DNA of 6,385 bases from an uncultured Candidatus Pelagibacter sp. GTDB taxonomy: Bacteria; Pseudomonadota; Alphaproteobacteria; Pelagibacterales; Pelagibacteraceae. The stretch is from assembly GCA_913043015.1 (NCBI GenBank), contig CAJWKX010000038.1, positions 1 to 6,385 of the forward strand. The letters are read 5' to 3'. The notes beneath the pieces are model-generated. The model was not told the DNA's origin and searched no databases. It saw nothing but the letters and a program-made list of their open reading frames with translations. This document shows positions 3,207 through 6,385 of the stretch, in pieces. The first letter of the stretch is position 1. Each line of letters begins with the position of its first letter. The translations under genes were made by a program, and so were the position numbers.

Positions 3207-4116
3207 ATTGAATAAACGCATTTGCAAATTTTTCTGCATTAAATATTTGTAAATCGTCTTCTTTTTCACCAAGTCCTAACGCAATTATTGGTAGTTTATA
3301 TTTTTTAGCCAAAGCAATGAGAATTCCACCTTTAGCTGTTCCATCTAACTTTGTCATTATTAAACCTGTAATAGGAATAATTTTATTAAACTCTTCTACT
3401 TGATTAATTATATTTTGACCTGATGTAGCATCTAAAACCAATATAACTTCATGAGGTGCATTTGGATCAATTTTTTTTGTTACATTTGCAATCTTTCTAT
3501 ATTCATCCATCAAGTTTTTCTTATTTTGCAGCCTGCCTGCCGTATCAATTAACACATAGTTAATTTTATTTGCTATTGCATGTTCTACAGCTCTATAAGC
3601 AACTGAAGCCGGATCAGATCCTTGATTGGATTTGATTATTTCAACATCTATTTTTTTTGCCCAATTTTCTAGCTGTTCGATAGCCGCAGCTCTAAAAGTG
3701 TCACATGCAGAAAGAATAACTTTGCTTCCATTTGATTTTAAAATTTTACCTATTTTACCAATAGTGGTTGTCTTACCTACGCCATTAACACCTGCAATAA
3801 GTATGGCATTTAAACCTTCTTTTTTAGTAATAAAATTTTTGTTTTCTAAAGGCTTCATCAATGTAATTATATAATTTTTTAGAAGTAAATTTACTTCATC
3901 CATAATATTTTTTTTTGGATCAATTTTTTCTTGAGCAATTATTTCTTTGATATCTGAGGCAGCTTGAATTCCAACATCGGATTGAATTAAATAATCTTCA
4001 ATTTTATTTAAAGTATTATCATCAATTTCTTTTTTTACTATGATATCTCGTAATCCAGTTGCAAAAGTTGATGCACTTTTCCTAAAACCTGATTTAAATT
4101 TTTCAAAAATTCCCAT
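3199..4116 (-). CDS. ftsY: Signal recognition particle receptor FtsY
   Basis: FtsY is the membrane-bound GTPase that receives Ffh-ribosome-nascent chain complexes and hands them to SecYEG. The 305-residue protein has a short basic amphipathic N-terminus ('IFEKFKSGFRKSASTFATGL', 3-22) in place of the long acidic A domain of E. coli FtsY; that segment is the likely lipid anchor. The N domain covers about 25-95 and the G domain about 100-305. Visible motifs are the P-loop 'GVNGVGKTT' (109-117), 'DTFRAAA' (139-145), 'DTAGR' (191-195), the guanine-specificity 'TKLDGTAKGG' (255-264) and 'GLGE' (281-284). 'DTFRAAA' and 'TKLDGTAKGG' are FtsY-type, unlike the Ffh versions in the neighbouring gene. The start overlaps the dapF stop as TAATG, implying translational coupling. 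The tail overlaps the convergent exported-protein gene by 8 nt. Confidence 0.97.
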   Translation of the reverse strand: MGIFEKFKSGFRKSASTFATGLRDIIVKKEIDDNTLNKIEDYLIQSDVGIQAASDIKEIIAQEKIDPKKNIMDEVNLLLKNYIITLMKPLENKNFITKKEGLNAILIAGVNGVGKTTTIGKIGKILKSNGSKVILSACDTFRAAAIEQLENWAKKIDVEIIKSNQGSDPASVAYRAVEHAIANKINYVLIDTAGRLQNKKNLMDEYRKIANVTKKIDPNAPHEVILVLDATSGQNIINQVEEFNKIIPITGLIMTKLDGTAKGGILIALAKKYKLPIIALGLGEKEDDLQIFNAEKFANAFIQSN

Positions 4117-4940
4117 TATATTATTACTTCAATTTCTTTTATTTCAGAAACAGGACCACTCATATATATCGAGAAATCATATTCGATTCTTATTGAAAGA
4201 AATCCTAATTCAAATTGAATATCTGTTTTTTTTGATGTTAATCCATTTAAAAATCCTGCAAAAGCAGTTGCGCACGCCGCTGTTCCGCAAGCCTTTGTTA
4301 AACCCGCACCTCTTTCCCATACCCTTACTAGTATTTTATTTTTATTTATCACTTTAGCGAAAGTTACATTACATTTTTCAGGAAATAATTCGTGATTTTC
4401 TATTTCGGGTCCAATTTTTTGGATATCAAAATTATCTATGTTCTCAACAAAAAATATTACATGAGGATTGCCAACATTAACAGCGATACCATCAATATAA
4501 TTAGAATTATCTTTTGATTTAATTTTTATTCCCAAATTTTTTGTGTCTACTTTTTTACTAAGTGGAATTTTATTCCATTCAATTGTTGCTTTACCTATAT
4601 TTGTTTCGACGAAGTTATTATCTAATATATTTGAATTTAAAATTCCTGATGATGTTTCTAAACTAATTGTTTTTTGGTTGTTTTCGGCAGATAAAAATCT
4701 TGCAACACATCTAGTTCCGTTTCCACAAGCTCCCGAGATACTTCCATCAGAATTATAAAAAACCAAAGAGCCATGGCTTGATTGACTTTGGTTGATAAAA
4801 ATTAATTGATCACAGCCTATAAAATTTCTCTTACAAATTTTTACTATTTGATTTTTAGATAAATTTAGATTTTGTAATCTTTGATCAATGATTACAAAAT
4901 CATTACCCAAACCGTCCATTTTAAAGGCATTAAATTGCAT
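4116..4940 (-). CDS. dapF: Diaminopimelate epimerase
   Basis: DapF is a cofactor-independent cytoplasmic enzyme that interconverts LL- and meso-diaminopimelate, the last step before lysine decarboxylation and the source of the peptidoglycan cross-linking residue. The 274-residue length is normal. The N-terminus 'FKMDGLGNDFVIID' is diagnostic. The two catalytic cysteines are both present: Cys72 in 'SGACGNGTRC' and Cys218 in 'GAGLTKACGTAA'. Further family motifs are 'NSDGS' (63-67), 'VNVGNPH' (154-160) and 'ERGAG' (209-213). The protein is the usual duplicated fold, one cysteine per half. The ATG at 4938-4940 gives 'MQFNAFKMDGLG', close to the E. coli start 'MQFSKMHGLG', so the start is well placed although no Shine-Dalgarno sequence precedes it. 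It is first in an operon with ftsY (TAATG overlap) and divergent from ffh. Confidence 0.97.
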   Translation of the reverse strand: MQFNAFKMDGLGNDFVIIDQRLQNLNLSKNQIVKICKRNFIGCDQLIFINQSQSSHGSLVFYNSDGSISGACGNGTRCVARFLSAENNQKTISLETSSGILNSNILDNNFVETNIGKATIEWNKIPLSKKVDTKNLGIKIKSKDNSNYIDGIAVNVGNPHVIFFVENIDNFDIQKIGPEIENHELFPEKCNVTFAKVINKNKILVRVWERGAGLTKACGTAACATAFAGFLNGLTSKKTDIQFELGFLSIRIEYDFSIYMSGPVSEIKEIEVII

Positions 4941-4964: not shown

Positions 4965-4992
4965 TTGACTTTTTGAACCTCTATTATATTTT
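4965..4992 (+). promoter_or_regulatory. Putative sigma-70-type promoter for the ffh leader
   Basis: TTGACT at 4965-4970 matches the -35 consensus at five of six positions. Downstream, TATTTT at 4987-4992 lies at 16 nt spacing (four of six), while the better hexamer TATATT at 4985-4990 lies at only 14 nt. Either places transcription start near 4996-5000, exactly where base composition changes from AT-rich to GC-rich and the structured leader begins. That coincidence is the best support for the call. It is a pattern match only. Confidence 0.5.
4983..4988 (-). promoter_or_regulatory. Putative -10 element for the dapF-ftsY operon
   Basis: The - strand reads a perfect TATAAT here, 42 bases before the dapF ATG, which would give a leader of about 35 nt. 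No convincing -35 hexamer sits at 16-18 nt upstream: that position reads only a T-rich stretch inside the ffh leader. The same bases contribute to the putative -10 of ffh on the other strand, so the two promoters would overlap. In DNA this AT-rich a single hexamer match is weak evidence. Confidence 0.35.
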
Positions 4993-4995
4993 CAT

Positions 4996-5092
4996 CCCGT
5001 TTCCGCAAAAAACAGCAATTTGCGGTGTCTTTGGGGACAAAGAGATCGACACTAGTCAGCGAGGGTTCGCCCACTAGTGCGATTGCTGCTGT
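4996..5092 (+). ncRNA. Structured 5' leader RNA of ffh with three hairpins and a pseudoknot
   Basis: I count about 53 G or C in the 100 bases from 4996, against an AT-rich background. Hairpin A pairs 5003-5009 (CCGCAAA) with 5019-5025 (TTTGCGG) around the 9-nt loop AAACAGCAA. Hairpin B pairs 5028-5033 with 5038-5043 and is capped by GGGA, a GNRA tetraloop. Hairpin C pairs 5045-5048 with 5080-5083 and 5050-5056 with 5073-5079 (CACTAGT/ACTAGTG), with A5049 bulged. Past a CA/CC internal loop, GCGA (5059-5062) pairs with TCGC (5067-5070). The loop of A, CAGCA (5013-5017), is complementary to TGCTG (5084-5088), which directly follows hairpin C, giving an H-type pseudoknot. Linkers are only 2 nt and 1 nt. 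The GNRA cap exists only on the + strand, which fixes the orientation. It ends 12 nt before the ffh ATG, so cis-regulation of ffh is the likeliest role; a released small RNA is possible. It lacks the SRP RNA core. Confidence 0.8.
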
Positions 5093-5100
5093 ACGAAATT

Positions 5101-6385
5101 ATGTTTGAAAATTTGACAAATAAATTTGAAGAAATTTTTTCTTCATTAAAAAAAGCACCATCTCTTGATGAAAGACAAGTAGATGAAGGTTTAAGAAATA
5201 TAAGACTGGCTTTATTAGAGGCAGATGTATCCTTACCTGTTGTAAAAGAATTTGTTGAAAAAATAAAACCTAAAGCTTTAGGTCAAGAAATAATTAGATC
5301 AACATCACCAGGCCAAATGTTGGTTAAAATTGTTTATGATGAACTTGTAAAACTTCTTGGAGATACTAGTTCTGACGTTAATTTAAATGCAGTTCCTCCT
5401 GTTTCAATGATGTTGGTAGGTCTACAGGGATCAGGAAAAACTACTACCACTGCTAAATTAGCAAAATATTTAGAAAAAAATAGAAAAAAGAAATTAATGA
5501 TGGTTAGCTTAGACGTTTATAGGCCAGCCGCACAAGAACAATTGAAGTTTTTAGGTGAACAAAGCAATATTCTTACATTGCCGGTAATTAACGGACAACT
5601 TCCGGCCGACATCTGCAGAAGAGCAATAAGTGCTGCCAATCTTAATGGAGCAGAGATTATTTTATTTGATACTGCCGGCAGAACCCAGATTGACCTTCAA
5701 ATGATGAGCGAAATAAAACAAATTGAAAGTATTATAAATCCTACCGAAGCTTTTTTAGTTGCAGATTCTTTAACAGGCCAAATAGCAGCTGAGGTTGCAA
5801 AAGAATTTAAAAATACAGTTAATCTTACGGGAATAATTTTAACTAGAGCGGATGGTGATGCCAGAGGTGGAGCTGCAGTAAGCATGAAATATGTTTCGCA
5901 TGTTCCAATTAAATTTTTAGGTGTTGGGGAAAAAATAGATAATTTAGAAATTTTTCACCCAGATAGAATCGCAAATAGAATTCTTGGTATGGGAGATGTT
6001 GTTTCTTTGGTAGAAAAAGCAGCTCAAGACCTTAGTGAAGAAAATATAAAAAAAACAGAAGAAAATTTAAAAAAAGGGAATTTTTCAATGGAAGATTATT
6101 TAACTCAATTGAGACAAATGAAAAAAATGGGAGGAATAGAAGGAGTCATGTCATTTTTACCAGGTGTTTCAAAAATTAAATCACAAATGGATCAAGCTGG
6201 GGTAGATGAAAAAATAATAACTCAAAACGAAGCTATAATTTTGTCTATGACAAAAAAAGAAAGAGAGAACCCAAAAATAATTGATGGTTCCAGAAGAAAA
6301 AGAATTGCTAATGGCTCTGGTACAGATGTAGCCACTATCAATAAATTGTTAAAACAATTTAAAATGATGTCTGAAATGATGAAGA
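5101..6385 (+). CDS. ffh: Signal recognition particle protein Ffh (3' end outside window)
   Basis: Ffh is the GTPase that binds SRP RNA and hydrophobic signal sequences emerging from the ribosome and docks on FtsY. The first 428 codons are present. The ATG at 5101 gives 'MFENLTNKFE', the standard Ffh N-terminus, so the start is firm despite no Shine-Dalgarno sequence. The N domain (about 1-90) includes 'LRNIRLALLEADV' (31-43). The G domain has the P-loop 'GLQGSGKTT' (107-115), 'DVYRPAA' (138-144), 'DTAGR' (190-194), 'TRADGDARGG' (248-257) and 'GVGEKIDNLEIFHP' (274-287). The Arg and Ala after Thr in the specificity motif differ from the E. coli form (TKVDGD) but keep the Asp. The methionine-rich M domain begins near 300 and includes 'MKKMGGIEGVMSFLPG' (340-355) and the SRP-RNA-binding 'SRRKRIANGSG' (397-407). 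Only the C-terminal tail is missing. The gene follows the structured leader and is divergent from dapF-ftsY, which encodes its receptor. Confidence 0.98.
   Translation, partial: MFENLTNKFEEIFSSLKKAPSLDERQVDEGLRNIRLALLEADVSLPVVKEFVEKIKPKALGQEIIRSTSPGQMLVKIVYDELVKLLGDTSSDVNLNAVPPVSMMLVGLQGSGKTTTTAKLAKYLEKNRKKKLMMVSLDVYRPAAQEQLKFLGEQSNILTLPVINGQLPADICRRAISAANLNGAEIILFDTAGRTQIDLQMMSEIKQIESIINPTEAFLVADSLTGQIAAEVAKEFKNTVNLTGIILTRADGDARGGAAVSMKYVSHVPIKFLGVGEKIDNLEIFHPDRIANRILGMGDVVSLVEKAAQDLSEENIKKTEENLKKGNFSMEDYLTQLRQMKKMGGIEGVMSFLPGVSKIKSQMDQAGVDEKIITQNEAIILSMTKKERENPKIIDGSRRKRIANGSGTDVATINKLLKQFKMMSEMMK

Follow-up and report, generated by a model that had tools for sequence, protein, structure and literature searches.

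The window, i.e., the whole stretch of 6,385 nucleotides analyzed here, belongs to the genus of 'Ca. Pelagibacter ubique'. It contains the divergent dapF and ffh genes, and the stretch between their starts is free of genes, as the initial annotation had described. The features of this gap are collected in Table 1. The rpsP gene, which encodes the ribosomal protein S16, lies outside the window, past its end; in relatives (loci L159-L170) it is found after ffh.

The initial annotation had pointed to a compact GC-rich, structured RNA in AT-rich DNA, and both properties are found. Positions 4996-5092 have a G+C content of 52.6%, compared to 28.1% across the window, and this value is reached in 3 of 6289 segments of 97 nt, all three at this site. 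The fold of the segment has an energy of -35.2 kcal/mol, while the shuffle mean is -26.1 kcal/mol (z -2.63, with 2 of 200 shuffles equally low), and the structure is further backed by the covariation of hairpins A, B, and C considered below.

Table 1. Positions of genes, promoter elements, and RNA features in and around the dapF-ffh gap.
Feature	Position	Strand	Details
dapF	4116..4940	-	start at 4940; divergent neighbor of the leader
TTGACT, likely -35 box	4965..4970	+	assigned from the sequence
TATTTT, likely -10 box	4987..4992	+	putative; would place the transcript start near 4999
Hairpin A	5003..5025	+	CCGCAAA 5003-5009 with TTTGCGG 5019-5025
Extended B base	5023..5048	+	C5023-G5048, G5024-C5047, G5025-U5046, U5026-A5045 (CGGU/AUCG)
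Hairpin B	5026..5045	+	U5026-A5045, G.G mismatch 5027/5044, six pairs 5028-5033/5038-5043, GGGA loop
Hairpin C	5050..5079	+	seven outer pairs 5050-5056/5073-5079, four inner pairs 5059-5062/5067-5070, GGGU loop
Conserved 3′ tail	5080..5091	+	ends with GCUG; from alignment A1
ffh	5101..6384	+	5′ part, cut by the window end; ATG at 5101; first gene past the leader

Identity and distribution of the element

The Rfam search gives a match to RF01793 at 5035-5087 with 55.7 bits, for a cut-off of 35, and no other Rfam family exceeds its threshold in the window. The suggestion that the element could be the Pelagibacter ffh motif is thus confirmed. The motif was described in 2009 by Meyer et al. (PMC2704228) as a single bulged hairpin with a possible role in the control of ffh and no proposed mechanism, in agreement with its earlier characterization as a candidate lacking one. 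According to the same source, the motif precedes ffh in nearly every example, and in HTCC1062 it is assigned to the gap between ffh and dapF at 260190-260348. The match in the same-genus genome G011 (260205-260256, minus strand) falls within this listed gap, such that the element and the ffh/dapF gap are the same in the two cases. Unlike the single-hairpin description available there, the element considered here includes also hairpins A and B, an overlap between them, and rpsP as the likely target. The element itself is known, its anatomy extends beyond the published description, and S16 rather than Ffh is its likely target.

Within the order of the window, 348 of 397 genomes contain RF01793. 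A class-wide sample of 385 genomes gives 106 with a match, of which 81 exceed the cut-off; the stricter filters used for this second count miss some weak matches. No match is obtained in the 14 control genomes. Twenty of the 49 genomes of the order without the family were checked, and none of them has a full ffh over the cut-off, one having the terminal part of the gene at the edge of a contig. This suggests that the locus is absent from those assemblies and that the missing matches in the order reflect assembly gaps. A table in PMC5596092 lists an RF01793 RNA of Mesorhizobium huakuii, MH_s5, in an intergenic region labeled Pb, possibly on a plasmid, and this is possibly a second genomic context for the family.

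Three hairpins and an overlap between A and B

The structure was assessed in an alignment (A1) of 58 SAR11 sequences, hand-chosen from 78 unique sequences of 93 loci. Hairpin C, which is the hairpin of RF01793, is paired in 100% of the alignment cells, with two of its 11 pairs changed on both sides and nine invariant. The corresponding values are 96.6% and two of seven pairs for hairpin A, and 86.7% and six of eight pairs for hairpin B. For the three hairpins together, 95.0% of the cells are paired, compared to 89.0% in shuffles, 10 pairs have changes on both sides, compared to 7.1 (1 of 500 shuffles being as high), and the doubly changed cells amount to 110, compared to 32. Slid versions of the same structure are only 36-51% paired. 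No excess of further pair types is seen in these sequences (24 compared to 23.5 in shuffles). The check for covariation that had been proposed for these helices thus gives a positive answer for the three taken together, as judged by the pair counts, with most of the support located in B. Hairpins A and B are backed by covariation besides C, so the element is larger than the published hairpin.

The division into three hairpins made in the initial annotation holds for A, B, and C as such, while the outer extension of C that was implied by its single-nucleotide gap after B does not. This extension (5045-5048/5081-5084), which is seen in the thermodynamic fold, is paired in 81.3% of the cells, compared to 81.0% in shuffles, with one doubly changed cell, and it was rejected in favor of the extension of B because 5045-5048 pair as extended B instead. 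Two further candidates were also discarded. A pseudoknot between the loop of A and the tail (CAGCAAU 5013-5019 with AUUGCUG 5082-5088) is perfect in the window, yet it is paired in 48.2% of the cells in both the alignment and the shuffles, and shifting the register by one column raises the value to 61.1%. A helix that would close the element by pairing its 5′ end with the tail, close to the start of ffh, was considered as an anti-Shine-Dalgarno arrangement and evaluated on 75 unique strand pairs taken from 93 loci. Its mean energy is -7.30 kcal/mol for matched and -6.83 kcal/mol for mismatched strands, a slight difference that is equaled in 108 of 5000 permutations, and its 5′ strand would fall largely before the inferred transcript start.

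The inner part of hairpin C contains the two mismatches C5057.C5072 and A5058.C5071. The C.C mismatch is found in 66 of 68 unique elements from SAR11, in all 11 of the PS1 type, and in 120 of the 128 others, with U.C in its place in the remainder. These counts come from a finder whose score favors C at the mismatch. The position beside it is A.C in 64 of 68 SAR11 elements, A.A in 8 of 11 PS1-type elements, and either A.C (77) or a standard pair (47) in the 128 others. The internal loop of the published motif is better read as a C.C mismatch plus this neighboring position. The two conserved C residues in the bulged hairpin of RF01793 are present in the window as C5071 and C5072. The second of these is C in all counted elements, again at a place where the finder favors C. 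At the first, C is found in all 68 unique elements from SAR11, in 98 of the 128 others, and in 2 of the 11 of the PS1 type. In this count, L044 was left out beforehand (the locus being off the match), L105 and L244 gave no match, and seven low-scoring loci were dropped; three of these, namely L227, L254, and L275, nevertheless have the element, with a U.C mismatch at the C.C position.

A general scan for a hairpin in front of C gives a score of 10.34 in SAR11, compared to 5.30 in shuffles (51 sequences), and 7.0 compared to 4.8 in the PS1-type elements (12 sequences), which are clear differences. For other alphaproteobacteria the difference is modest (6.92 compared to 5.55, 126 sequences), with 40% of the sequences over the shuffle mean plus one standard deviation.

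The base of extended B (Table 1) is paired in 99.6% of the cells, compared to 95.1% in shuffles, with 15 doubly changed cells, all at one pair. Nucleotides 5023-5025 are claimed both by this base and by the 3′ arm of hairpin A, and the two helices consequently look mutually exclusive. A1 columns 21 (5′ arm of A), 44 (shared), and 69 (3′ arm of B) vary in concert, their combination being GCG in 40 sequences, AUA in 15, GUG in two, and GUU in one. On a tree of Ffh obtained with a quick method, the AUA state requires two changes, both forced by well-supported branches, a number of events too small for a significant sign test. The two conformers, with energies of -28.0 and -26.9 kcal/mol, are 1.1 kcal/mol apart, while the minimum-energy fold (-36.9 kcal/mol) is a third conformer in which C is paired further outward, a pairing that the covariation does not favor. 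A hairpin A of at least six pairs ending on the shared bases is found in 49 of 50 SAR11 sequences (7, 10, and 3 in offset controls) and in 14 of 19 sequences from outside SAR11 and PS1 with this type of B (0, 0, and 3). It is found in none of eight PS1-type elements, which is under the offset controls (3, 3, and 4). The mutual exclusion of the two helices is evident from the sequence, and a switch between them in the cell is a possible consequence.

The rpsP operon with and without detectable SRP

The SAR11 operon has the order ffh-rpsP-trmD-rplS-leuC-leuD-leuB in L159 and L169, while rimM follows rpsP in L164; these are the three loci in which the SAR11 position of rpsP was read. The rpsP gene is located downstream of ffh in 12 of the 12 loci that were fetched for the element (L159-L170), although in L161 and L165 it is more than 2 kb beyond ffh, with other genes in between. 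Neither L159 nor L169 has rimM between rpsP and trmD. Many SAR11 contigs break off some 1.65-1.75 kb past the element, close to the 3′ part of rpsP (e.g., G276:C8, G195:C1, and G116:C15). In L159, the S16 protein carries a tail of repeated Ala/Pro/Glu/Lys residues, and this repetition may disrupt assembly from short reads.

A further 80 named loci were retrieved by means of S16 as the query, such that rpsP is present by construction and the set is usable only for missing genes. In the 66 of these that extend at least 3.5 kb after the S16 gene, tblastn detects ffh in 62, rimM in 60, trmD in 55, and L19 in 40. The four loci without ffh are two of the PS1/OCS116 type and two that are cut off upstream. 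In L227 and L268, which have the element followed by ffh-rpsP, none of rimM, trmD, and L19 is found within the 4.3 kb after rpsP that the search reached, with the proviso that tblastn with few queries can miss L19. In L227, the long open reading frames after rpsP lie on the opposite strand.

A different context is provided by a family of PS1/OCS116-type genomes (f51), with named relatives among the OCS116 cluster and the PS1 clade as well as 'Hyphomicrobiales' AH-657-K06. Fourteen of the 18 genomes carry the element, and in all 14 loci the gene that directly follows it is rpsP. The divergent dapF is visible in 12 of them, the other two being near contig ends. (Loci L203-L206 are four of the same genomes, as seen from the matching positions; further loci of the family are L171-L184.) A search with TIGR00959, which also detects a second, FtsY-like protein in the comparison genomes, finds neither Ffh nor FtsY in any of the 18 genomes, six of which are at least 90% complete; the only match, of 17 bits over 45 positions, is not an SRP GTPase. 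With the same model, both proteins are found in 5 of 5 comparison genomes. A query with the SAR11 Ffh protein, run without a positive control, gave no match in 10 PS1-type genomes. The SRP RNA (4.5S) was not found in any of the seven PS1/OCS116-type genomes searched for it, while all five comparison genomes have it at E <= 0.001, four over the cut-off and one, a SAR11 genome, under it. Since the SRP RNA family is matched in only 11 of 14 control genomes, a divergent SRP RNA may persist in the PS1-type family. As judged from these searches, the PS1/OCS116-type alphaproteobacteria appear to have lost the whole SRP, and no such loss in PS1 or OCS116 bacteria is reported among the open-access literature matches listed. 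A lineage without detectable SRP constitutes a natural experiment that separates a position before ffh from a function for ffh.

These results bear directly on the proposal, implied by the published motif and by the initial annotation, that the leader controls the synthesis of the SRP protein. In such a mechanism, Ffh or SRP would autoregulate its own mRNA through the leader, which would agree with the position of the motif before ffh in nearly all examples given in PMC2704228, and with the presence of ffh after the element in SAR11 and in the 12 loci selected for it. However, the position before ffh, which holds in the window, is not universal: in the PS1/OCS116-type loci the element has been retained before rpsP in the apparent absence of Ffh, FtsY, and 4.5S RNA. 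The window itself, moreover, has no SRP RNA match at E up to 5. We therefore consider control by Ffh very unlikely.

The rpsP gene is the only one that is found downstream of the element in every carrier with readable downstream genes, which points to S16 as the regulated protein. As ribosomal leaders are recognized by a protein from the operon that they precede (PMC7247131), S16 is also the likely ligand. The present analysis thus favors, with a probability of roughly 60%, that positions 5003-5091 constitute the RF01793 RNA plus two additional hairpins and act as an autogenous leader of the rpsP (S16) operon rather than as a sensor of Ffh. Another product of the same operon, namely L19, TrmD, or RimM, could take the role of the ligand instead. 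The trmD and rplS genes do follow rpsP in the SAR11 operons that were read and in the PS1-type loci that are long enough, and a leader for L19 has been described in Firmicutes and Flavobacteria (PMC7247131), with which the present case shares the presence of L19 in the same operon. The missing genes in L227 and L268 argue against all three proteins, and the absence of rimM between rpsP and trmD in L159 and L169 argues against RimM in particular, which makes this possibility unlikely. No L19 leader appears among the Rfam 15 matches in the window up to E 5.

Likely promoter, predicted output, and the proposed S16 leader

A TTGAC box accompanies hairpin C at a rather constant distance. Within the 150 nt that precede the hairpin, it is found in all 92 SAR11 loci, all 20 PS1-type loci, and 105 of the 130 others, the median distances being 85, 78, and 89 nt, respectively. 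In a control stretch 300-450 nt upstream, it is found in 20 of 92, 0 of 15, and 4 of 92 loci, respectively.

Downstream of hairpin C, the groups differ. The tail of many other alphaproteobacteria consists of a U-run followed by a UUUGG-like stretch. A U-run, defined as at least four consecutive U within 12 nt after C, follows the hairpin in 56 of 128 unique elements from groups other than SAR11 and PS1, and a control stretch gives 5 of 128. The counts are 4 of 68 for SAR11 and 2 of 11 for PS1-type elements. In SAR11, the median distance from the end of hairpin C to the start codon is 23 nt, as read in 91 of 92 loci. In Sinorhizobium meliloti, the dapF-ffh gap holds a predicted RNA, sm5 (PMC2573895), and deep sequencing found a 115-nt transcript, SmelC778, that was matched to Sm5 (PMC2873474). 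An RNA of this kind is as expected of a terminated leader, and together with the U-run it fits attenuation in many species. In SAR11, where C ends near the start codon, interference with initiation at ffh is possible. L159 has a strong Shine-Dalgarno-like AAGGAGA before rpsP, in the 10-nt gap after ffh, which weakens the case for a control of S16 by a purely translational block at ffh.

The same observations can be read in two other ways. The hairpin with its U-run could be a constitutive terminator, or the leader a 5′ stabilizer, without any ligand. The conserved C.C mismatch, linker, and tail, together with two overlapping covarying helices, exceed what a plain hairpin would need, and such a ligand-free role is highly improbable. 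Alternatively, the leader could give rise to a free small RNA whose main action is in trans. Rfam types RF01793 as an sRNA, and, besides the S. meliloti transcript, an 'ffh leader RNA' is named among the expressed sRNAs of Bartonella (PMC7717549). Nevertheless, the element precedes the same operon whichever gene comes first, and the short distance between hairpin C and the start codon in SAR11 leaves little room for a separate transcript. Hence, a principal role in trans is distinctly unlikely.

For the S16 leader, the following mechanism can be envisaged. S16 in excess over free 16S rRNA would bind to the stack formed by B and C, stabilizing C together with extended B and thereby disfavoring A, and the bound leader would reduce operon expression. 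For many alphaproteobacteria, transcription is predicted to stop early, at hairpin C with its U-run. For SAR11, where the U-run is mostly missing and C ends about 20 nt before the ffh AUG, the prediction is instead a block of initiation at ffh, with lowered expression downstream. A more detailed version, which we advance only tentatively, is that an S16-sensing switch, based on the choice between A and extended B and on the C.C mismatch, is the missing regulator of rpsP-rimM-trmD-rplS and has outlived SRP in a marine lineage that would have lost Ffh, FtsY, and 4.5S RNA.

The element shares with ribosomal-protein leaders a covarying structure in a 5′ leader and a location upstream of a ribosomal-protein gene or operon. 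A leader with S16 as the proposed ligand has in fact been put forward in Flavobacteria, where it lies before rpsP, usually with rimM (PMC7247131). The present element resembles it in being an RNA before rpsP with S16 as the proposed ligand and differs in its occurrence, the Flavobacteria leader being compared here by its description only. The likeness of a leader to the rRNA site of its protein is, according to the same source, frequent and not required. In a simple scan of one SAR11 16S locus, nothing like hairpin C was found: the two hairpins with a C.C mismatch inside the 16S do not have the sequence of C, and GTCAGCG occurs once, without a partner strand. Against the S16 reading counts also that the PS1 leader may simply have been inherited along with its promoter. 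Among the open-access titles and abstracts listed, a set that leaves subscription papers mostly outside its scope, none links RF01793 to rpsP or S16.

If the S16 reading is correct, it would supply a target and a testable ligand for an orphan RNA found in most genomes of the SAR11 order. It would also provide the regulation of the trmD operon, which a 2024 review (PMC10931766) describes as a rare case for which information on control is lacking. The closest reference genome is stated to match about 20% of marine metagenomic reads (PMC2704228).

Finally, a tRNA-Ala gene is located shortly upstream of the element in L223, L255, and L275, though not in L279. In the former three loci, the element could also end a tRNA transcript.
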